Part shown: one piece after another, positions 6,419-44,891 of the stretch
Numbering within the stretch: position 1 is the first letter of the stretch
Layout: each line of letters starts with the position of its first letter
Assembly (NCBI GenBank): GCA_022824865.1
Contig: JAJDZD010000041.1
Coordinates: 1 to 64,000 of the forward strand
From: Chloroflexota bacterium
GTDB lineage: Bacteria > Chloroflexota > UBA11872
DNA: 64,000 bases
Direction: 5' to 3'
Made by a program: the position numbers and the translations under genes
The notes under the pieces: model-generated
Database searches by the model: none
Told to the model about the DNA's origin: nothing
The model's input: only the letters and a program-made list of their open reading frames with translations

Positions 6419-8415
6419 GATGCGGCGGGCTGTGAAGCGACGCCCGGAATCGCCGCCGTTTCCCGACGCTCGACCGGCCAGGCGATAACGAGGATGCCGA
6501 CGAAGTAGACGATTCCGCCGATCCAGAGCAGGACGACAAGCGGATTGACGAGCAAGCGAATGGTCGCGGATGCGCCGCTTCCATCCCATGAACTCAGCAG
6601 CACGTACACGTCGTCCAGGTGGGGCAGCGTCGTGCTGACCGCTACGTCGGCGGTCGGTTGGTTTTCCCAGCCGGCGTGGATACGACGGGAGGGGGACAAG
6701 CGGTCGATGACTGCGCCGTCGCGCAGAACATCCACCTCAGCGACGACGGTATTCAGACCCGGCTGCACGCTGCTGCGGAGACCCTGGAAGACGACATCGT
6801 ACGGTCCGAGGCTCACGGCCTCGCCGCGCTCGACGTTTGCGGCGGTCTCCTGGCTGAAGGCGGCGGAAGCGATGATTCCAAGCGCCAGGATGGCGACGCC
6901 CAGGTGCACGAGATAGCTGCCCAGCCGCCGCCGGTTGCCCACCATGAGCGGGTAGGGTCCGGTTGTCGCTTGGCGCCGGCGGGCGAGTCCCGCCCGCATG
7001 CTGCGCACGTACTCCAGGGCGACACCCACCGCGACGGCCGCGGTGAGCCCGATGGCGATGATTGGCAAGCCGTCGCGCATACCCAGGACCGCCAGCAGCA
7101 CGGAAACGAGCGCGAGCGTGGCGATGGGCCAGCGCGTGGCCCGCCAGGCGGCGCGCAAGGACGTGCGGCGCCAGGCCAGCAGCGGCCAGATGGCCAGCAG
7201 CCCAAGCGTGGCGACCAGCAACGGCACGTTGACCTGGGTGTAGAAGGGCGGGCCGACGGCGATGCGGGCGCCCTGCACGATCTCGGTAACCATGGGGAAA
7301 ACCGTGCCCCAGAAGGTTGCCGCGGCTATGGCCAGCATTAGCAGGTTGTTAATCAGGAAGCCCGCCTCTTTCGACGCGACATCGGTAATCGGTTCGTCCG
7401 AGCGGATGAGGGGCAGGCGGTAGATGAAGAGCGCGGCCGAGAGGATCAGGAGGGCGCCGACAAAGACGAAGAAGATCGGGCCAACGTCGGACAGCGCGAA
7501 GTTGTGCACGGACGACAGAATGCCGCTACGAACCACGAAGGTGCCGAAGATCGCCAGCGCGTAAGTCACCAGCACCAGGCCGATGGCCCAGGCCCGCAGC
7601 TGGCCGCGCCGCTCCTGCGCCAGCGCGGAATGCAGATAGGCCGTGGCCACCAGCCAGGGCAGCAGCGCCACGTTTTCCACCGGATCCCAGCCCCAGTAGC
7701 CGCCCCAGCCCAGCACGCGGTAGGCCCACCAGGCGCCCAGCAGCAGCCCGGCGCTCTGGATGGCCCAGGCCAGGAGCATCCAGTTCCGCATTTCTCGCAG
7801 CCAGGGCTGGGTGACGCGTCCGGCCAGCAGCAGCCCGGCGGCAAACGCGAAGGGGATTCCGAAGCTCATATAGCCGGAGAGCAGCATTGGCGGGTGGATC
7901 TGCATGCCGCTGTCCCAGAGCAGCGGATTGAGGCCGCGGCCCTCGGCCGGCGCGGCCACTAGGCGCGCGAAGGGTGACGAGGTGAAGACGAGCACGCCCA
8001 GGAAGAACAGCTGCAGGCCGCTGAGCACGACGATTCCGTGCGGGCCGACGACGCCATCCGCCGTCAGCATGCGGCGGGTGGCGACCGCCGCGAAAAGGCT
8101 CATAGACCAGGTCCAGAAGAGCAGCGAGCCTTCCTGGCCGCCCCACAGCGCGGCGATGGTCAGGCCGGTGGGCATGGCCGAACTGGAGTGGTCGGCCACG
8201 AACTGGATGGAAAAGTCGCGGGCCAGGAAGCCGGCCGCCAGGCCCGCAACCACAACAGTCAGCAGGGCCGCCTGCACCGACGCCGCATTGGCGGCGCTAC
8301 GACTCAATTCCGGCGTGCGACGTACGGCGCCGGCGAGTCCAAGCAGCACTTGAAGCACGGCGACGCCGAAGGCGATACCGAGTCCCAGCCGGCCGGCATC
8401 GACGAGATCAGGCAT
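6415..8415 (-). CDS. ccmF: Cytochrome c heme lyase CcmF
   Basis: 666 residues with about 15 predicted membrane helices, the usual CcmF size. It transfers heme from holo-CcmE to apocytochrome c. Conserved features include LWGGQEGSLLFW (91-101), GLNPLLWDSGMQIHPPML with His174, and the tryptophan-rich WWD-type motif WGGYWGWDPVENVALLPWL beginning near residue 237. The ATG is at 8413-8415, 47 bases after the ccmD stop. Its stop overlaps the ccmH GTG. The protein is complete with all expected motifs, so I see no reason to doubt function. Confidence 0.95.
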   Translation of the reverse strand: MPDLVDAGRLGLGIAFGVAVLQVLLGLAGAVRRTPELSRSAANAASVQAALLTVVVAGLAAGFLARDFSIQFVADHSSSAMPTGLTIAALWGGQEGSLLFWTWSMSLFAAVATRRMLTADGVVGPHGIVVLSGLQLFFLGVLVFTSSPFARLVAAPAEGRGLNPLLWDSGMQIHPPMLLSGYMSFGIPFAFAAGLLLAGRVTQPWLREMRNWMLLAWAIQSAGLLLGAWWAYRVLGWGGYWGWDPVENVALLPWLVATAYLHSALAQERRGQLRAWAIGLVLVTYALAIFGTFVVRSGILSSVHNFALSDVGPIFFVFVGALLILSAALFIYRLPLIRSDEPITDVASKEAGFLINNLLMLAIAAATFWGTVFPMVTEIVQGARIAVGPPFYTQVNVPLLVATLGLLAIWPLLAWRRTSLRAAWRATRWPIATLALVSVLLAVLGMRDGLPIIAIGLTAAVAVGVALEYVRSMRAGLARRRQATTGPYPLMVGNRRRLGSYLVHLGVAILALGIIASAAFSQETAANVERGEAVSLGPYDVVFQGLRSSVQPGLNTVVAEVDVLRDGAVIDRLSPSRRIHAGWENQPTADVAVSTTLPHLDDVYVLLSSWDGSGASATIRLLVNPLVVLLWIGGIVYFVGILVIAWPVERRETAAIPGVASQPAAS

Positions 8416-8462
8416 GTCCGGTTCGCCCTAGGGACGCGAGCGTCGTCGCCGCCGAGTCTGAA

Positions 8463-8630
8463 TCAGTGGCTCGACGCTTCCCGCCCCGCCTGTGGCGCGT
8501 CGAGCTGCCCGCGCAGATCATGCAACTCGTCGCGCACGTTACGCACGCGGCCGGTGACGTAGACCAGGTAGCCGAAAATCCCGATCCACACGGCACTGAA
8601 GCCGATGAAAAGATACAGCAGATCGCTCAT
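8463..8630 (-). CDS. ccmD: Small cytochrome c maturation protein CcmD
   Basis: A 55-residue gene between ccmC and ccmF, read as MSDLLYLFIGFSAVWIGIFG at the N-terminus, then a short charged helix (GRVRNVRDELHDLRGQL). One membrane helix at about residues 5-24 followed by a positively charged cytoplasmic helix is the CcmD layout. CcmD stabilises the CcmABC transporter with CcmE and helps release holo-CcmE. The ATG at 8628-8630 overlaps the ccmC stop (ATGA, 8627-8630), a strong sign that this short frame is real. Position between ccmC and the heme lyase genes is the standard one. Confidence 0.88.
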   Translation of the reverse strand: MSDLLYLFIGFSAVWIGIFGYLVYVTGRVRNVRDELHDLRGQLDAPQAGREASSH

Positions 8631-9373
8631 GCGGATTCCTCGTTTCGTTCGTGCAGCCGCTCGCGCAGGCTTCCCAGTTCGGTCGCGGCCAGTTCAAGCT
8701 GCATGCGTTGTCGCAGCAGCACGACGTAGAAGACGGTAAAGGCGGCGACTGACACCATCAGCGTCGTCAGCATCTCGCGCGGCATGCCGCCGCCGGGACT
8801 GGTGACCGACGGCGTGGGGTGCAGGCTGCGCCACCATTCCACCGAGAACCACACGATCGGCACGCTGACCACGCCAACGATGCCCAGCACGGAGGCCATG
8901 CGCTGGCGGGCGTCCGGGTCGTCGATATAGGAACGCAGCGCCAGGTAACTCACGTAGATGAACCACATGATCAGGGTTGTGGTGAGCCGTGGATCCCACT
9001 GCCACCACACGCCCCAAACGCTGCGGCCCCAGACGGAGCCGGTGACCAGGGTGAGGGTGGTGAACAGCACGCCGATCTCCGCCGAGGCGAGCGCGAGGCG
9101 GTCCCAGCGGGATTTCCCGCGAACGAGGTACATCACGCTGCCAACGGCCACCACGCCGAAGGCGGCGAACGCCAGCCAAGCGCTGGGCACGTGCACGAAG
9201 AGCAGGCGGTAGACCTCGGCCTGTACCCGCTCGGCCGGCGCGAAGATGAACGCCATGAACAGCGCCAGGCCCATGCTCAGCAGCAGTGCTGCGTAGAGTG
9301 CCGCGGTCCCGGGGTGCCGGAGCGCGCCGAGCCACCCGGGCCTAGCCAACTCCGACGTGCGAACCTGACTCAT
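8627..9373 (-). CDS. ccmC: Heme exporter/heme-handling protein CcmC
   Basis: 248 residues with six predicted membrane helices. CcmC presents heme to CcmE. The WWD motif is intact (VWGVWWQWDPRLTTTLIMW, about 119-137), flanked by the two conserved external histidines: His61 in FVHVPSAW and His185 in SLHPTPSV. ATG at 9371-9373, 12 bases after the ccmA-ccmB fusion stop. The stop overlaps ccmD. Order ccmE-(AB)-C-D-F-H differs from E. coli only by the early position of ccmE. Confidence 0.95.
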   Translation of the reverse strand: MSQVRTSELARPGWLGALRHPGTAALYAALLLSMGLALFMAFIFAPAERVQAEVYRLLFVHVPSAWLAFAAFGVVAVGSVMYLVRGKSRWDRLALASAEIGVLFTTLTLVTGSVWGRSVWGVWWQWDPRLTTTLIMWFIYVSYLALRSYIDDPDARQRMASVLGIVGVVSVPIVWFSVEWWRSLHPTPSVTSPGGGMPREMLTTLMVSVAAFTVFYVVLLRQRMQLELAATELGSLRERLHERNEESA

Positions 9374-9385
9374 TCCTGCCTCCAG

Positions 9386-10774
9386 TTAGCTACGGGCCGC
9401 GTGCGGGTAGAGCACCGACCCGAGAGCCAAGAATACGACCGTCACCACCGCCAGCAACCCGAACCAGGCGCCTAGTTGACCGGCGGGAGTGACTTCCAGC
9501 GCTCCGAGCGTGATTCCCACACCGGCCAGCAGCACCGGAACCGCCGGAGGTATGGCCAGCAGGGGCATGAGCATCTCGCGCGCGCGGGCGTTGACGACCA
9601 GGGAACTCTGCAGAGCGAGGATGGCGCTGATTGCCGCGGCTGCCAGGACCACCGCACCTATCGTGCTTGCCTGAAACAGGGAAACGTTCAACAGCAGGCT
9701 GAGAAACACCAACTGGGCGACCCCGACGAATGCCGTTTCCAGCGCCAGCAGCGTGAACTTGGCGAGGTAGATTCCGCTCGGGTCGACTGGCGCAACCAAC
9801 AGTCCGTCCAGCGTGCCCCGCTCATGCTCGGTGGCGAACAGGCGGGTGCCCGCCAGGGTTGCGGCCAGCAGCACGCTGATCCAGAGGACCCCGACGGCGA
9901 CAGCGGCGACCTCGGATCCCAACGCGGCAATGAACGCCATGTCGAATACGACGGCGGCGAGCAGCGTGAACATCAGCAGCGTTGGGACCTGCTCGCGCGC
10001 CCGCCACTCGACGCGAGTGTCCTTGGCAATCATGGCCCAGACGGCGCGTCCGAAGCTCGGGGGACGCGGTCGGACTTGTGTGGGGACAGTTGGCGGAGTC
10101 AGATCTGGCGTCTTGCGCGGGTCATCCGTGAGGCGTCCGGCCTCGAGCCGCACAATGCGGGCGCCCAGCGCGTGGGCCACGCGCTCGTCGTGGGTGCTGA
10201 AGAGCACGGCTGCCTGGGGCGCCAGCGCGTCGAGCATTCGCGGAAGGTCGTCAACGCCGGCCGAATCGAGGCTGGCGTCGGGCTCGTCCAGCAGGACGAC
10301 GTCAGGTTCGGCCAGCAGAGCCAGGGCGAGTCCCAGGCGCTGCTGCATTCCGCGCGAGAAGTGGCGCACCAGGCGGTTGGCATCCGCTGCCAGTCCCACC
10401 GTTTCCAGGGCGCTTTGGATGCGTTCGGCGCCCTCAGGCACTCCTTGCAGACGGGCCGCGAAGGCCAGGTTCTCGCGGGCGGTGAGATGCGGATAGAGCG
10501 GGGGACGGTGTCCCAGGAAGCCGAGTCCGCCGCGCGCGGCGGGGTCCTCCGGACTCTGGCTGCCCCGCAACGCCACCCGGCCGCGACGTGGGCGCAGCAA
10601 ACCCGCCAGGGCGCGCAGGAGCGTGGTCTTGCCCGCGCCGTTAGGTCCGACGACGGCCATCCGTTCGCCGGGCGCCAACGCCAGCGATACGCCGCGCAGG
10701 ACATTTCGCTGGCCCAGCCGAACATGCAGGTCGTCCGCGACTATTGCCGGCGAGGTCGTGCGTGTGGTTTGCAA
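9386..10774 (-). CDS. ccmAB: Fused heme ABC exporter: CcmA ATPase plus CcmB permease in one chain
   Basis: 462 residues. Residues 1-220 are a CcmA ATPase: Walker A GPNGAGKTT (43-51), signature FSRGMQQR (139-146), Walker B VVLLDEPDASLD (159-170) and the switch histidine in STHDER. After a proline-rich linker (about 222-241), residues 244-462 are a complete CcmB permease with about six helices and the family string FATEHERGTLDGLLVAP. No stop or frameshift separates them. The ATPase releases holo-CcmE from CcmC. The start is a TTG at 10772-10774; no ATG or GTG precedes it in frame after the ccmE stop. The two proteins are separate in most organisms. A sequencing deletion is unlikely because the linker reads cleanly. 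Confidence 0.9.
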   Translation of the reverse strand: MQTTRTTSPAIVADDLHVRLGQRNVLRGVSLALAPGERMAVVGPNGAGKTTLLRALAGLLRPRRGRVALRGSQSPEDPAARGGLGFLGHRPPLYPHLTARENLAFAARLQGVPEGAERIQSALETVGLAADANRLVRHFSRGMQQRLGLALALLAEPDVVLLDEPDASLDSAGVDDLPRMLDALAPQAAVLFSTHDERVAHALGARIVRLEAGRLTDDPRKTPDLTPPTVPTQVRPRPPSFGRAVWAMIAKDTRVEWRAREQVPTLLMFTLLAAVVFDMAFIAALGSEVAAVAVGVLWISVLLAATLAGTRLFATEHERGTLDGLLVAPVDPSGIYLAKFTLLALETAFVGVAQLVFLSLLLNVSLFQASTIGAVVLAAAAISAILALQSSLVVNARAREMLMPLLAIPPAVPVLLAGVGITLGALEVTPAGQLGAWFGLLAVVTVVFLALGSVLYPHAARS

Positions 10775-39488: not shown

Positions 39489-39566
39489 CAGACGCAATTG
39501 CTCGCCTATCCTCAAGTTCACGGCCCGAGAACCGCTCCGGCCCGAACTACACCTGAGACTCGTCCA

Positions 39567-39635
39567 ATGCGATTCCGCCACCTGAACACCCCGGCCATGC
39601 CCGGCCGGAGCCAAACGAGTTCCGCCGTGCCCTGA
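39567..39635 (+). CDS. Possible 22-residue leader peptide
   Basis: A short frame from ATG 39567 to TGA 39635 with an uninterrupted reading MRFRHLNTPAMPGRSQTSSA plus two residues. It lies 24 bases before a terminator hairpin (39659-39702) and about 100 bases before the ABC transporter. The order short peptide, terminator, exporter is that of an attenuator. No strong ribosome-binding site is seen upstream, so this may be chance. Confidence 0.3.
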   Translation: MRFRHLNTPAMPGRSQTSSAVP

Positions 39636-39658
39636 CCCGCGTCCGTCGCACGCCGCCG

Positions 39659-39702
39659 CCGCGGATCAGGCGCCGAACTCATCGGGCGATCCGCGGTTTT
39701 TT
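39659..39702 (+). terminator. Rho-independent terminator or attenuator hairpin
   Basis: Left arm CCGCGGATC (39659-39667) and right arm GATCCGCGG (39688-39696) pair perfectly over nine bases with a 20-base loop, followed by six T (39697-39702). It lies 30 bases upstream of the ABC ATPase start and 170 bases after the MATE-like gene, so it can end the nuoB-PHP-MATE transcript or regulate read-through into the exporter. Confidence 0.75.
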
Positions 39703-39732: not shown

Positions 39733-40560
39733 ATGCAACCCGCTGTATCCATTGACCACCTGGTCAAGCAATTCGACCCCGCCGGCGTTGGCGGCGCGTG
39801 GCGGCGCGCCCTGGGCCGGCCGCTCAAGGATCCGATAGTGGCGCTTGACGCCATCAACCTCCAGGTCCAACGCGGCGAGGTGTACGGCATCGTCGGATCC
39901 AATGGCTCCGGCAAGTCAACGCTGGCTCGCGTCGTCGCCACGCTACTGCTACCGGACTCGGGCTCGGTCCAGGTCTTTGGCCACGACGTCGTCCGCGATG
40001 CCCGCACCGTCCGCCGCTTCATGAACCGCGTCTCCGTGGAGGCGTCGTTTTTCAAGAAACTCAGCCCGCTCGAGAACCTCACCTTCACCGCCCGCATCTA
40101 CGGCCTGCCGGCCGGCGAAGCCCACCAACGCATCTTTGAAATCCTCAAGCGCCTGGACATCGAGGAGAAGGCGATCCGCCGCCCCATGGACCAGATGTCG
40201 CGCGGCCAGCAGCAGAAGGTCGCCGTGGCGCGCGCCCTGCTCACCTCGCCCGTGCTCCTGATCCTTGACGAACCCACCACGGGTCTCGATCCACGCTCCA
40301 AGCGCGAAGTCCAGGACTTCGTCCGCGAGGTCTGCGACACCCACGACGCCACCGTCATCCTCATGACCCACGACATGGACGAAGCCGAACAGCTCTGCGA
40401 CCGCCTGGCCGTGATTGACAAGGGCCGGATCCTGATCGAAGACAAGCCCAGCGCCCTCCGCCTCGAGGGCGAGACGCTGGAAGACGCCTTCATCCGGCTC
40501 ACCGGCCACGCCGTCGAAGTGCACGAACCCGACAAAGCCGCCGCCGGCGGAGGAGGTTGA
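39733..40560 (+). CDS. ABC transporter ATP-binding protein (ABC-2 exporter type)
   Basis: 275 residues from ATG 39733 with GAGG four bases upstream. Walker A is GSNGSGKST (55-63), Walker B LLILDEPTTGLDP, and the switch histidine is in LMTHDMDEAEQL. The signature is MSRGQQQKVAVARALL, where the usual first glycine is arginine. A loop rich in Arg and Lys after residue 15 (GVGGAWRRALGRPLKDP) is typical of polysaccharide or daunorubicin-like exporters of this class. It powers the permease four bases downstream. The substrate is unknown. Confidence 0.9.
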   Translation: MQPAVSIDHLVKQFDPAGVGGAWRRALGRPLKDPIVALDAINLQVQRGEVYGIVGSNGSGKSTLARVVATLLLPDSGSVQVFGHDVVRDARTVRRFMNRVSVEASFFKKLSPLENLTFTARIYGLPAGEAHQRIFEILKRLDIEEKAIRRPMDQMSRGQQQKVAVARALLTSPVLLILDEPTTGLDPRSKREVQDFVREVCDTHDATVILMTHDMDEAEQLCDRLAVIDKGRILIEDKPSALRLEGETLEDAFIRLTGHAVEVHEPDKAAAGGGG

Positions 40561-40564
40561 CCGC

Positions 40565-41389
40565 ATGGTTGCCTTAGGACGTGAACTCGGCGCTTCCTAT
40601 GCCTTCGTCGAGCGCAACTTTCGCGCTGTGCGCCGCTATTGGGGCTGGGAGGTCGTGTTCCTCTTCTACTCCATCGTTAACGCGCTCACCGTCGCCTACA
40701 TCGCGCCCGGCGGCGTCCTCGTGGCGGGCCAGCAGTTCGACGCCGACCGCCTGATCCTGTTTCTCGTCGTCGGCACCGTGGTCTGGGCCTACCTGAACAG
40801 CGTGTTCGACTCGGTGGCCTTTATGGTCTCCTGGGAACGCTGGGAAGGCACGATCGAAAGCACCTTCATGGCCCCCATCCGCCGCGTGACCTTCATTGCC
40901 GGCAGTTCGGCGTTCGCGGTGCTCTACTCGTTCGCCCGCGCCGTCGTGATCCTGGTGGTCGTGGCGCTGTTCTTCAGCCTGGACCTGGGCGCGGCCAACT
41001 GGGTTGGCGCCTTCGCGGTCCTCGCGATCGGCAGCTTGGGCCTGCTGGGCATCGGCATCATGTCGGCCGCGTTGCCCCTGCTCTTCCTGGAACGTGGCTC
41101 GCAGATGACGGTGGTCGTCCAGGCCTCGCTGCTGCTTGTCTCCGGCGTCTACTACCCCGTGGAGGTCTTGCCTGACTGGCTGGAGTGGTTCTCCGTAATC
41201 TCACCCGCCACCTACGTCCTCAACGCCATGCGCGCCGCGGTGCTCGATGGCGTCACCCTGATCGACCTGCTGCCCCACTTCGGTCCCCTGATGCTCATCA
41301 CCGCCGTCACCATGCCCGTAGGTGTCTGGGTCTTCGGCTGGGCCGAACGCTACGCGTTGCGCCACGGCCGCCTGAAGCGCAGCGGCTGA
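40565..41389 (+). CDS. ABC-2 type permease
   Basis: 274 residues with six predicted helices and the ABC-2 pattern: an N-terminal amphipathic segment (FVERNFRAVRRYWGWE), VSWERWEGTIESTFMAPI near the middle, and VSGVYYPVEVLPDWLEWFSVISPATY before the last helices. GGAGG about eight bases upstream of ATG 40565 is a good ribosome-binding site. It forms an exporter with the preceding ATPase. It converges with the halogenase gene, 14 bases away. Confidence 0.9.
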   Translation: MVALGRELGASYAFVERNFRAVRRYWGWEVVFLFYSIVNALTVAYIAPGGVLVAGQQFDADRLILFLVVGTVVWAYLNSVFDSVAFMVSWERWEGTIESTFMAPIRRVTFIAGSSAFAVLYSFARAVVILVVVALFFSLDLGAANWVGAFAVLAIGSLGLLGIGIMSAALPLLFLERGSQMTVVVQASLLLVSGVYYPVEVLPDWLEWFSVISPATYVLNAMRAAVLDGVTLIDLLPHFGPLMLITAVTMPVGVWVFGWAERYALRHGRLKRSG

Positions 41390-41403
41390 GGTCGCTCGGC
41401 CGT

Positions 41404-43092
41404 CTACGCAACGCTGACAGCGCCCGTCTCCGCCAGGCGCTGCAGCGTCGTCGCCACCAGGTCGCGCAGGTCGGACTCAATCGGTGTGCCGGCGTAGCGC
41501 TCACGCAGGTCGGCCGCGATGTCCAGCCCGCTGCGGCGGCCGTCCAGCCGCTCCAGCACGGGCAGCGCCGCAATCGGCAGTTCGATGTGCTCCGGACCTG
41601 CGTTGGGATGCAGCCGCGTTACCCTCGTAATCGGGCGCAGGATTTCGTCATGCTCGGCCATGTGCGGACGAAAACTAATCGCCTCGCGAAGCCGTGGCCG
41701 GCCCCCGAGCACGGTCGTGGCTGTTGGCGCGCGCGCTGCGCCGCGGCCAAAACCCGCCTCGGCTTCCGATATCTCGGTCTGGCTGTCGGTATCCAGGTCC
41801 GTCGCCAGGTTGTCGTAGATCATTTCCAACTGCCGGGGGCTGTAGCCGCCCGCCGATCGCAGATTCCCGCCCGCCCCCTGCGTGCCGGTCACGCCTGCCG
41901 ACAGGTGAATGAAGGCCTGCCGGATTGAGAAGTTACGCGTCGGGTCCGCCAGCTTCTTGGCCCGCCAGAACCACGCGTCGGCGTCCGCGTGCCCGCCGTA
42001 CCAGTGCTCGGCAAGGTCCGCAAAGTCCGTGGCGATGCTCCGGTACTCCGTCTCGTACCAGTCCATCGCCATGCCCTGCAGCCACGGGGCCGACCGTCCC
42101 GTCCGGATCGCCCGAGCCGCCCGCAGTGCTCCATTCACCGCCAGCGTCACGCCCGTCGACAGGATCGGATCGATAAAGCACGCCGCGTCGCCGACCTGCA
42201 TGAATCCGGGACCGGCGAATCGTGAACAAAAGAACGACCAGTCGCTCAGCGCCTCGACCCGTCCGCTGACCCATGTGCCGCCTTCCAGCAGCGCGGCAAT
42301 CTCTGGGCACGCTCGCACCTGCTCCAGATAGTAGTCCGTCCGGCTAGCCGCGCTCAGGTTGGCCACCGCCTCCGGGTCCGTCACCACTCCCACGCTGCGC
42401 ATCGTGTGCGCGATCGGGATGTGCCAGATCCACCCGTCCGGCACCGTCACAATCAGGATGTTCCCCGAGTCCTTGGCGTCGTCGGACCCAAGCACCTGAG
42501 CCAGGTCGCGCCCTCCGCTCCAGTGCCCATAGAAGGCCACGTGCCGCAGCGCCGTGTTGTACTGGCGCGTCCGAAAGACCCGACCGAACAGCGCGTCCTG
42601 ACCCGTCGCATCGATGGTCAAGTCGGCGTGCAGCGCGCGTTCGCGCCCGTCGTCGGTGCGAACGCGCGCGCCCTGAACTGCGTCAACGGACCCCAGCGGC
42701 CCCAGTGCCGTCACCCCCTGGCGGACCTCCACGCCCTCGGCGGCGGCGTGGTCCAGCAACAACTTGTCGAACTTCGCCCGATCCACCTGCCATGCGAATG
42801 CCTGGTCCGGGTACACCTCGCTGAACTTCACCGTCCACGGCTCGCGCGTCCGGCCCCAGATGTACGTCGCCCCGTATTTCTGCGTGAAGCCCGCCTTCTC
42901 GACCAGCGGCAGTGCCCCGCTTGCGTCCAGCGCCGGCAGCACGCCCGGAATCAGCGACTCGCCCACGTGCGGCCGCGGCATGTGCTCCCGCTCCACCAGC
43001 GCTACCCGCAGTCCGTCTTGCGCCAGCAGCGTGGCCAGCGTCGACCCGGCCGGCCCGCCGCCCAGGATCAGCGCGTCGTACCCGTTGTTCAC
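41404..43092 (-). CDS. Flavin-dependent halogenase-like protein with a PqqD-like C-terminal domain
   Basis: 562 residues from a GTG at 43090-43092 overlapping the upstream stop (GTGA). FAD-binding GGGPAG is at 11-16, GESLIPGVLPALD at 44-56, and a lysine in TQKYGATYIWG (Lys72) is where halogenases have the catalytic lysine that makes the halamine. The halogenase motif WxWxIP is present as WIWHIP (221-226). GDAACFIDPILSTGV closes the FAD domain. Residues about 500-562 (LPIAALPVLERLDGRRSGLD, then a helix-rich end) look like a PqqD/RRE winged helix. Halogenation of a carrier- or peptide-bound substrate is plausible. No NRPS or radical SAM gene is adjacent. Confidence 0.82.
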   Translation of the reverse strand: MNNGYDALILGGGPAGSTLATLLAQDGLRVALVEREHMPRPHVGESLIPGVLPALDASGALPLVEKAGFTQKYGATYIWGRTREPWTVKFSEVYPDQAFAWQVDRAKFDKLLLDHAAAEGVEVRQGVTALGPLGSVDAVQGARVRTDDGRERALHADLTIDATGQDALFGRVFRTRQYNTALRHVAFYGHWSGGRDLAQVLGSDDAKDSGNILIVTVPDGWIWHIPIAHTMRSVGVVTDPEAVANLSAASRTDYYLEQVRACPEIAALLEGGTWVSGRVEALSDWSFFCSRFAGPGFMQVGDAACFIDPILSTGVTLAVNGALRAARAIRTGRSAPWLQGMAMDWYETEYRSIATDFADLAEHWYGGHADADAWFWRAKKLADPTRNFSIRQAFIHLSAGVTGTQGAGGNLRSAGGYSPRQLEMIYDNLATDLDTDSQTEISEAEAGFGRGAARAPTATTVLGGRPRLREAISFRPHMAEHDEILRPITRVTRLHPNAGPEHIELPIAALPVLERLDGRRSGLDIAADLRERYAGTPIESDLRDLVATTLQRLAETGAVSVA

Positions 43093-43979
43093 GTGCAGTC
43101 GTGTTTCCGGCGCAGCCGTCGGCTCTCCGCGTTGCGCCCCGCCGCATCCAGCAGCGCGGCCGCTCTGGCGTAAGCGGCCTTGTGGTTGGCGCTTCCGCTG
43201 AGATCCAGGGCGCGAGCCCGCGCCTGCCAGGCGCGGGCCGCTACCGACGGCGCTCGCCCGGCGTCCACGACCTTCAGCGCAATGTCCGCCAGCCCCACGG
43301 CCGGCGAAGCAAACTGCCGCGGATCGGTCTTGGGATGGTCCAGCAGCAGCCCGCTCAGCAGAAGCTGGCAACGCGCATGTGATGTGGAGTCCACGTCCGG
43401 AGTCAACGTAGCCGCCGCGCGGCGTGCGTGACCTACCGCCCGCTCGATCAGCGGGGCTCGATCATCGGCCGGGTATCGAGCGAAGACCTCGGCGATTTCC
43501 AGGTCCGTCCGCGCCGCCGCCTCGCGATCTCCTGCGGTCTGCTTGAACTGGGCGGCCGCCAGCAGGTCCATCGCCGCCGCCTCCAGCATGCGAGCGTCCA
43601 AAGCGTCCCCGCTCTCGGCGGCCAGTCGACGCGCGACCCCGCGCGCCTCCTGCGCATCGGCTCGGGCCTCCGCGTCGGATTGTTTCGTGTGCTCAATCCA
43701 GGACTCCGCGGCCTCGATGGCCTCCAGCGCCGCGACCCTGCCGACCGGTTGACCGGCAACCACCATCGCCCGCACGCCCCGCGCCAGCGCCTGAGCGGCA
43801 CCCACGGAAGCCTTTGGAAACGACTTGCTATCCAGAACCGCCCAGGCGCGCCGCGCTGCCGCAACCTCGTCTGGAGTGCCGGGCGACGTGTCGTCGGCTA
43901 CGCGCTGATCCGCCAGCGCCTCCAGGGCGAATCCCAGCGGATCTGCCGCCAGGTCAGCGGTCGACGCGTCAGGAGTCAC
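43089..43979 (-). CDS. All-helical repeat protein upstream of the halogenase, function unknown
   Basis: 296 residues from a GTG at 43977-43979. It is alanine- and arginine-rich and predicted nearly all helical, with degenerate TPR-like spacing (for example ARMLEAAAMDLLAAAQFKQT and LIERAVGHARRAAATL). There is no signal peptide or membrane helix. The stop overlaps the halogenase GTG, so the two are co-translated and may form a complex; a substrate-presenting or chaperone role is inference. No named family recognised. Confidence 0.65.
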   Translation of the reverse strand: MTPDASTADLAADPLGFALEALADQRVADDTSPGTPDEVAAARRAWAVLDSKSFPKASVGAAQALARGVRAMVVAGQPVGRVAALEAIEAAESWIEHTKQSDAEARADAQEARGVARRLAAESGDALDARMLEAAAMDLLAAAQFKQTAGDREAAARTDLEIAEVFARYPADDRAPLIERAVGHARRAAATLTPDVDSTSHARCQLLLSGLLLDHPKTDPRQFASPAVGLADIALKVVDAGRAPSVAARAWQARARALDLSGSANHKAAYARAAALLDAAGRNAESRRLRRKHDCT

Positions 43980-44099
43980 GACAGGGCCTGCTCGGGTGCG
44001 TGGACGTGTCGCGGAAGCATGGGAGAATCAGTCTAGCCGGAGGGTCGGTTGCGTCCGTCCACCCGTCGGACGCGCTCCGAACACGGGAAGGGACAGACC

Positions 44100-44891
44100 A
44101 TGGCCACGCAAACGCTCGCACGCCTGACGCCCGCGCAGGTCGACTCGTTTTGGCGCGACGGATACCTCGCCCTGCCGGACTTCCTGAGCGATGACGACAT
44201 CGCCACCCTGCGGACCAGCATGGACGCTCTGGAGAGTTGGGCGCAGAGCCATGAGCACCGCGACTTCCAGCGCGAACCGAATGCGCTCCACATCGAGCGA
44301 CTCGCGATCCGCAAAATCAACCACATTCACAAATACGGCGGGGTGATCTGGGACGAATTGATGCGCCGCGACGAAGTGCTGGACCTCATGGAGGATCTGA
44401 TCGGTCCTGACATCCGATTCCATCACTCCAAGATGATGGTGAAGCCGCCGTTCGAAGGCTCAGCCAAGCCCTGGCACCAGGACCTGCCGGAAGGCTTCAT
44501 CACGCACGAGGAAGCCGACCGTCTCCGCCCGTGGGGAACCGACTTGCAGCCCGAGCAGGTGCCGGTCGTCGCCATCCAGTATTACCTGGACGATTCGACG
44601 CTTGAGAACGGCTGCATCCAGGTCGTCCCTGGCAGCCATCGTCGCGGCCTGTTCGAAGATCCCTTGCACGAGTCGCTGATCGATCTGTCGGAGGTCGTGG
44701 CCGCCGAACTCAAGACTGGCGGCGCGCTGTTGTTTCACTGCCTGACGTACCACTATTCGGCGCCAAACACCTCTCCTAACGGGCGTCGCGGCGTCGTATA
44801 CGAGTACATGGCCCCGGCAACAGGCGTGGAGCTCTCCTACGACGTCGAAGCCGACGCTGGCTGGGGCACGCCGCTGCGAAGCGCCAACTAG
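44100..44891 (+). CDS. Phytanoyl-CoA dioxygenase (PhyH)-family protein
   Basis: 263 residues from ATG 44100 with GGAAGGGA upstream. This is an Fe(II)/2-oxoglutarate dioxygenase. The metal triad fits His126 and Asp128 in PWHQD and His218 in TYHYSAPNTS; an arginine after it (Arg229/230) can bind 2-oxoglutarate. GCIQVVPGSHRRG is a standard family string. Members hydroxylate fatty acyls, betaines or secondary metabolites; substrate unknown. It is followed by a Gfo/Idh oxidoreductase 95 bases on. Confidence 0.9.
   Translation: MATQTLARLTPAQVDSFWRDGYLALPDFLSDDDIATLRTSMDALESWAQSHEHRDFQREPNALHIERLAIRKINHIHKYGGVIWDELMRRDEVLDLMEDLIGPDIRFHHSKMMVKPPFEGSAKPWHQDLPEGFITHEEADRLRPWGTDLQPEQVPVVAIQYYLDDSTLENGCIQVVPGSHRRGLFEDPLHESLIDLSEVVAAELKTGGALLFHCLTYHYSAPNTSPNGRRGVVYEYMAPATGVELSYDVEADAGWGTPLRSAN

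Follow-up and report, generated by a model that had tools for sequence, protein, structure and literature searches.

A flavin halogenase-like protein with a PqqD-like tail and a TPR-like partner in a Chloroflexota bacterium

The window analysed here, a stretch of 64,000 nucleotides from a Chloroflexota bacterium (assembly GCA_022824865.1, contig JAJDZD010000041.1, positions 1 to 64,000), carries on its reverse strand two overlapping genes that raise a simple question: on what kind of substrate would a flavin halogenase-type enzyme act when it ends in a PqqD-like domain and is translated together with a helical partner? The first gene, Hal1 (41404-43092, -), is an uninterrupted open reading frame (ORF) of 562 amino acids with a GTG start, encoding a flavin-dependent halogenase-like protein of the CndH/CmlS/FasV type. 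The second one, P0002 (43089-43979, -), encodes a co-translated all-helical protein of 296 amino acids that resembles tetratricopeptide repeat (TPR) proteins, and its stop codon and the Hal1 start have in common the four bases GTGA. The combination of halogenase, PqqD-like tail and TPR-like partner is a real, coherent architecture that is unreported in the open literature searched, where no fusion of a halogenase with a PqqD or RRE domain was found; to this extent a first-pass annotation of this DNA, which suggested a possibly undescribed system, is supported. As to its meaning, we tentatively propose, at somewhat less than an even chance, that Hal1 is a halogenase acting on a peptide- or protein-held substrate by means of its tail and its TPR-like partner. 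With halogenase chemistry granted, the chance of such a substrate becomes about even.

The halogenase motifs pointed out in the first-pass annotation are indeed all intact in the 562-residue ORF, namely the FAD-binding GGGPAG (residues 11-16; 43045-43062, -), Lys72 in GFTQKYGATYIWG (codon at 42877-42879, -) and WIWHIP (residues 221-226; 42415-42432, -), and so is FIDPILSTG (residues 306-314). Hal1 has both the GxGxxG FAD motif and the halogenase fold, and WIWHIP agrees with the WxWxIP motif used as a criterion for flavin-dependent halogenases (PMC5945002). In an alignment of 44 Hal1 relatives (A2), residues G11, G13 and G16 of the first motif and W221, W223, I225 and P226 of the third are invariant, as is the Lys72 column in 44 of 44 rows as aligned. 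Sequence alignments also place Lys72 opposite a lysine in FasV (8zop), CndH (3e1t), CmlS (3i3l) and ChlB4 (7fco), which upholds its proposed equivalence at the level of sequence rather than of structural superposition. The lysine at this place is presumably the catalytic one of CndH and CmlS, and Lys72 is the candidate catalytic lysine of Hal1. These four enzymes are the closest solved structures by sequence, whereas the closest by fold are FasV, CmlS, CndH, RadH, ChlB4 and PltA; the best matches in the PDB by both measures are halogenases, also including Mpy16 and Bmp2 after ChlB4 and PltA. Among family models, Hal1 matched Pfam Trp_halogenase (E 6.9e-36), and its nearest NCBIfam model was CmlS with 216.5 bits; as this is below the equivalog cut-off of 900, Hal1 belongs to the same branch as CmlS and is not CmlS itself. 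The AlphaFold model, built from A2, has a mean predicted local distance difference test (pLDDT) value of 84.2, with residues 367-369, 403-433 and 447-452 below 50. Two flavin reductases are encoded in the same genome, which is 92% complete, both on contigs other than that of Hal1. The chemistry of Hal1 is likely to be of the halogenase type.

These comparisons also bring in a different chemistry, in which Hal1 would hydroxylate peptides or proteins in the manner of QhpG and LodB, inserting oxygen into a residue held by the tail. This option is suggested by 191.5 bits with NCBIfam QhpG over residues 8-380 and 100 bits with LodB, together with the report that CmlS is the closest structural relative of QhpG (PMC7876137). 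Both scores are however below the respective cut-offs of 240 and 400, QhpG makes its earliest appearance in the fold list of Hal1 at row 34, behind many halogenase chains, and the halogenase marks Lys72 and WIWHIP are intact in Hal1 (their state in QhpG was not compared), all of which leaves a hydroxylase improbable.

The second part of the question concerns the tail, a PqqD/RRE-like winged-helix domain covering residues ~466-562 (41407-41697, -); the PqqD fold is one that commonly binds peptides. In the AlphaFold model the last 90 residues form a confident beta3-alpha3 winged helix, with strands at 472-481, 484-495 and 498-506 and helices at 507-514, 522-532 and 537-555, and with pLDDT block means of 91, 88 and 70 over residues 471-500 and of 87-97 over 501-562. 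The model conforms to the strand-strand-strand-helix-helix-helix order by which RREs are strictly defined (PMC12710340). A profile of 27 tails (A4) was searched against the PDB, and of the 13 matches listed at E<=5 the top three were PqqD structures (3g2b, 3.1e-4; 5sxy, 5.2e-4; 5vrd, 3.1e-3). In hhalign comparisons with five PqqD-family proteins from the genomes of relatives, ten tails of the window type scored 85%, 17 tails of a second clade described below (clade B) 84.8% and seven family-F tails 32%, and three ArsR-type plus two MarR-type winged helices, used as controls, stayed below 1% in every pair tried. Searches with Pfam PqqD (PF05402) gave E 0.0027 for the whole of Hal1 and 2.2e-4 for its last 98 residues, where the 22.0 bits fall narrowly below the curated cut-off of 23.4, and matched 10 of the 44 A2 members at E<=0.1. 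Because the profile matches are better and the single-sequence Pfam matches few and weak, the PqqD similarity of the tail, as seen from sequence, is real but remote, and the PqqD/RRE-like domain of the first-pass annotation holds in these terms.

The four-base overlap with the upstream partner, also noted at the outset, is present as described, and the helical nature of that partner was borne out by modelling. The P0002 model, obtained from an alignment of 13 sequences, shows 14 helices with a mean pLDDT of 88.4, and as modelled the protein would have the helical-hairpin fold of a solenoid. Its nine Foldseek matches at E<=0.001 are all TPR domains of LGN/Pins proteins (best E 3.5e-4; TM 0.49-0.62 in the top ten rows), and these domains were solved in complex with protein partners. 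The genome holds two further copies of the enzyme, 44% and 48% identical to Hal1, and the partners of these paralogs, Hal2 and Hal3, were gathered in a joint alignment of 13 members (A5). Among them Pfam detects TPR_11 in seven and TPR_1 in six at E<=1 (best TPR_1 match 3.2e-6), and in the PDB A5 matches best to the TPR region of O-GlcNAc transferase (E 0.0013). As P0002 and A5 align in hhalign at 83% over 69 columns, homology between P0002 and the Hal2 and Hal3 partners is, on sequence, likely but not firm.

Within the genus, sampled through 13 genomes with that of the window included, Hal1 is present in every one of them, and its 4-bp overlap with the helical partner is kept at all 13 loci. 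Three halogenase matches, partial ones included, occur in 11 of the 13 genomes and two in G003 and G007. The Hal2-type partner, of ~613 amino acids, lies directly upstream of its enzyme in 12 of 12 loci examined, a count that includes locus L130 of G003 by its partner and leaves out the G009 locus. None of the six genomes from the other sampled genus of the same family has the enzyme, and 38 of 400 genomes of the phylum contain a relative at E<=1e-60.

A wider scan with one genome per species (84,980 species) confirmed 436 relatives, the best 80 of which are considered here; they come mostly from Chloroflexota and Dehalococcoidia bins and from actinomycetes. Several of these bins appear to be sponge-derived, which we infer from the bin names and the literature on Chloroflexota of sponges (PMC6306507, PMC6644159), and the bacterium of the window is probably sponge-associated as well. 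The A4 profile finds the tail in 40 of these best 80 loci. By eye the tails of L033, L055 and L087 also resemble winged helices although the profile does not pick them up, and the family-F tails score only the 32% against PqqD given above, so that the figure of 40 applies to this profile and not to winged helices in general. Among the same best 80 of 436, luciferase-like genes accompany 21 of the 40 tail-bearing loci and one of the 40 tail-less ones, whereas genes of the AMP-ligase/ketosynthase type occur in 3/40 and 19/40, respectively (Fisher p 1e-4, with related rows that are not independent and a gene cluster made by BLAST linkage). Two of the three tail-bearing cases, L044 and L112, resemble by eye acyl-CoA ligase and FabD-like genes.

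A quick tree of 86 rows, made from the FAD part only, without bootstrap and with a midpoint root, puts the tail-bearing rows in two separate places. Clade A (19 rows, SH-aLRT 98) joins the 13 rows of window-type Hal1-3 and G020 with L033, L055, L065, L071, L087 and L112; clade B (30 rows, support 99) contains mostly marine Dehalococcoidia bins, with SAR202 and a few from Proteobacteria, and tail-less types, mostly actinobacterial, stand between the two. Given the midpoint root, the tail may equally well have been gained twice or gained once early on and then lost in places. The TPR connection of the window recurs in clade A. In L112 the repeats are fused behind the halogenase in a single frame of 795 amino acids (7971-10358, +) that has TPR genes on both sides, and in L071 and L087, both labelled Elusimicrobia, the halogenase-type gene lies amid several radical-SAM (S-adenosylmethionine) genes and genes for large TPR proteins, with TPR and radical-SAM parts joined in single frames of 1297 and 1244 amino acids. 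A third kind of neighbourhood is seen in L033 (5452-9139, +), from another Chloroflexota family, where chaperonin-like (PF00118) and BNR/propeller genes are found just upstream of the halogenase-type gene; the ORFs in L177, L178 and L179 have a like size and sequence start to these upstream genes, and L180 has similar ones.

The TPR and radical-SAM cases of clade A are scaffold or protein-modification settings, and for this reason we favour a peptide- or protein-held substrate. We also count in its support the halogenases at the top of the PDB lists, the constancy of the partner beside Hal1 and Hal2, the scarcity of AMP-ligase/ketosynthase-type genes in tail-bearing loci, and the description of QhpG, LodB and GoxB as CmlS-like flavoproteins modifying tryptophan in proteins (PMC7876137). 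On this proposal, a flavin reductase acting in trans would supply FADH2, which together with O2 would convert chloride or bromide by oxidation into hypohalite or a Lys72 haloamine, while the PqqD-like tail and the TPR-like partner would grip a peptide or protein whose aromatic group would receive the halogen; the paralogs Hal1-3 would then act on different substrates. A bolder extension, which we consider doubtful, is a class of systems, not named before, that modify proteins or peptides by means of a CndH/CmlS-type halogenase with an RRE-like domain of its own, working with TPR scaffolds that are co-translated, adjacent or fused. It is just as doubtful that such a class would span the Chloroflexota genus of the window, the Elusimicrobia bins with radical-SAM enzymes and one further bacterium, that of the fusion.

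The neighbourhoods of clade B speak for the main competitor of this proposal, namely that Hal1 halogenates a free small molecule, with a structural, dimerising or lid-like role for the tail and a stabilising or docking role for the TPR-like protein. The tail exists in two separate clades with different neighbours, and many clade B loci have the order hydrolase, luciferase-like, halogenase in what look like operons. A precedent is offered by the ammosamide enzyme Amm3, first expected to have a peptide substrate, which halogenates a small molecule and has a TPR protein in its cluster (PMC12715798). However, the TPR link recurs in clade A, as a fusion and with radical-SAM neighbours, and the PqqD similarity is specific when set against the small ArsR and MarR controls. 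We regard a free small molecule as a serious possibility, somewhat less likely than our proposal. As for the clade B operons themselves, the order alpha/beta hydrolase, luciferase-like monooxygenase and tailed halogenase, sometimes with one or two genes between, was observed in L044, L047, L048, L049, L053, L056, L059, L068, L091 and L094, mostly Dehalococcoidia. The ammosamide paper considers a predicted F420-dependent protein, Amm4, likely to be involved in chlorination (PMC12715798), a possible parallel to the luciferase-like monooxygenases of these operons.

Several observations weigh against a halogenase acting on a peptide- or protein-held substrate. The strongest is again clade B, where the same tail has luciferase-like monooxygenases and hydrolases as neighbours and no peptide context was seen, so that the tail alone is no proof of a peptide substrate; clade B loci have no TPR clusters either. 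Even among the six other rows of clade A, the gene listings of L033, L055 and L065 show no TPR gene, and those of L055 and L065 no radical-SAM genes. The partner is less constant for Hal3 than for its paralogs, being intact in four of the eight loci examined (L028, with one gene between, L030, L124 and L129). In L125 it is reduced to a remnant of 76 residues, and the stretches examined of L126, L127 and L128 showed none. In sequence searches P0002 itself has no TPR family match in Pfam at E<=1, its profile finds no match in the PDB at E<=1, and with two smaller alignments of partners hhalign gives only 7.9% and 40%. Within its own genome, the Hal1 tail is the only one to reach E 0.001 with PF05402, which the Hal2 and Hal3 tails do not. 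The fold of Hal1 is shared by flavin hydroxylases, and halogenation by Hal1 is a prediction. Finally, no precursor-like ORF conserved across the genus was found beside Hal1 among ORFs of 18-150 amino acids outside genes between 34.0 and 50.5 kb. What speaks for a peptide-bound substrate is therefore the tail together with the TPR-like partner and, in distant relatives, the radical-SAM/TPR neighbourhoods.

Some individual ORFs of this region deserve mention. One of 50 amino acids over the promoter (43969-44121) was rejected as a precursor on account of non-triplet indels among 11 loci, and for two overlapping ORFs at 39498-39682, compared with 15 loci, matches occurred only in L035, apart from a weak one of the first ORF in L013. 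Below the size range of the screen lies a mini-ORF of 14 codons (43976-44020, -) that has the same length in all 11 close Hal1 loci, where it starts nine bases past a TAGACT box, reads M..RH and ends in a TGA overlapping the P0002 start. The box is placed as in leaderless transcripts. Non-triplet indels occur in the stretch upstream of the mini-ORF; among differing codon pairs, 128 of 409 are synonymous in its frame, as against 83 of 420 and 67 of 403 in the other two frames, but third codon positions have no excess of differences (first 26, second 19, third 24). In G002 there is by eye a nine-codon ORF instead, and G003 has no clear mini-ORF at the same place. The mini-ORF is probably a leader, predicted to couple translation, and it could conceivably be a tiny precursor.

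The first-pass annotation also offered a carrier-bound substrate, which closer inspection did not support. We regard as very unlikely that Hal1 is a variant B halogenase working on a carrier-protein thioester, in trans for the modular polyketide synthase (PKS) encoded on another contig of the genome. CndH and PltA do use carrier-bound substrates (PMC5945002), and the genome has three PP-binding matches, two of them from one modular PKS locus (G000:C75), which has a 3446-amino-acid modular PKS (L137, 8987-19327, -), an ACP (acyl carrier protein)-like ORF and an ORF of 244 amino acids resembling, by eye, an Sfp-type transferase. The PKS contig differs however from those of all three halogenase genes, and no condensation domain was found in the genome, 92% complete as said. 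When a 700-amino-acid N-terminal piece of the PKS is compared with the 13 genus genomes, 11 of them show long matches at >=57% identity, and G002 and G003 only matches at ~30% identity or less. G003 is 76% complete, but G002 is a single contig of 3.0 Mb, 94% complete, with all three halogenase genes, from which it follows that the PKS is not needed for keeping the enzymes.

Around the two genes the intergenic spaces are of 14 and 120 bases. An ABC-type transporter pair (39733-41389, +), with the ATPase at 39733-40560 and the permease at 40565-41389, converges on Hal1 across the 14-base gap (41390-41403) that the first-pass annotation had described. Its further idea of an exporter belonging to the system found no support: the pair is also beside Hal1 in G002, but in the gene orders compared it is local to Hal1 and absent within ~5 kb of Hal2 or Hal3, with ABC genes of the same BLAST cluster lying more than 5 kb away from Hal3 in L030 and L037. 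On the other side, a PhyH-family dioxygenase gene (44100-44891) adjoins the halogenase operon. The genome (3.5 Mb) has 28 PhyH-family matches, any match being present in only one of 14 control genomes, and because of this abundance the neighbour was not used as evidence for a component of the system.

If a peptide- or protein-held substrate is correct, peptide halogenation would be performed by a branch whose known substrates have been carrier-bound or small, and a built-in recognition domain with a TPR partner would open up a new way of making halogenated peptides, one that could be engineered. It would also suggest substrates worth seeking in probably sponge-dwelling bacteria, sponges being rich in brominated compounds.

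How does Hal1 compare with known systems? Its nearest counterparts, CndH, CmlS and FasV, share with it the FAD fold, sequence over residues ~4-411 and a lysine at the place of Lys72, but their alignments with Hal1 end at residues 402, 402 and 411, before its PqqD-like tail. None of the three is known to have a helical partner. The action of CndH on a carrier-bound substrate is described in two of the sources (PMC5945002, PMC8407142). Known peptide-tryptophan halogenases are few, the four named being MibH, SrpI, MppI and ChlH, which halogenate tryptophan inside peptides (PMC12715798); SrpI has no embedded RRE as recognition domain (PMC10858898), and MibH (5uao) matches the A2 profile at only 4.2e-11, far behind CndH and CmlS. 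QhpG and LodB have the same CmlS-like fold as Hal1, which nevertheless falls below their NCBIfam cut-offs. The clade B enzymes have the two-domain architecture of Hal1, yet they form a separate clade, in loci devoid of TPR clusters. The tail of Hal1, finally, shares with PqqD and RREs the beta3-alpha3 order and a PqqD-specific likeness of profile; it differs in being fused to a flavin halogenase-type enzyme, in scoring below the Pfam cut-off and in that no precursor peptide was found near it.

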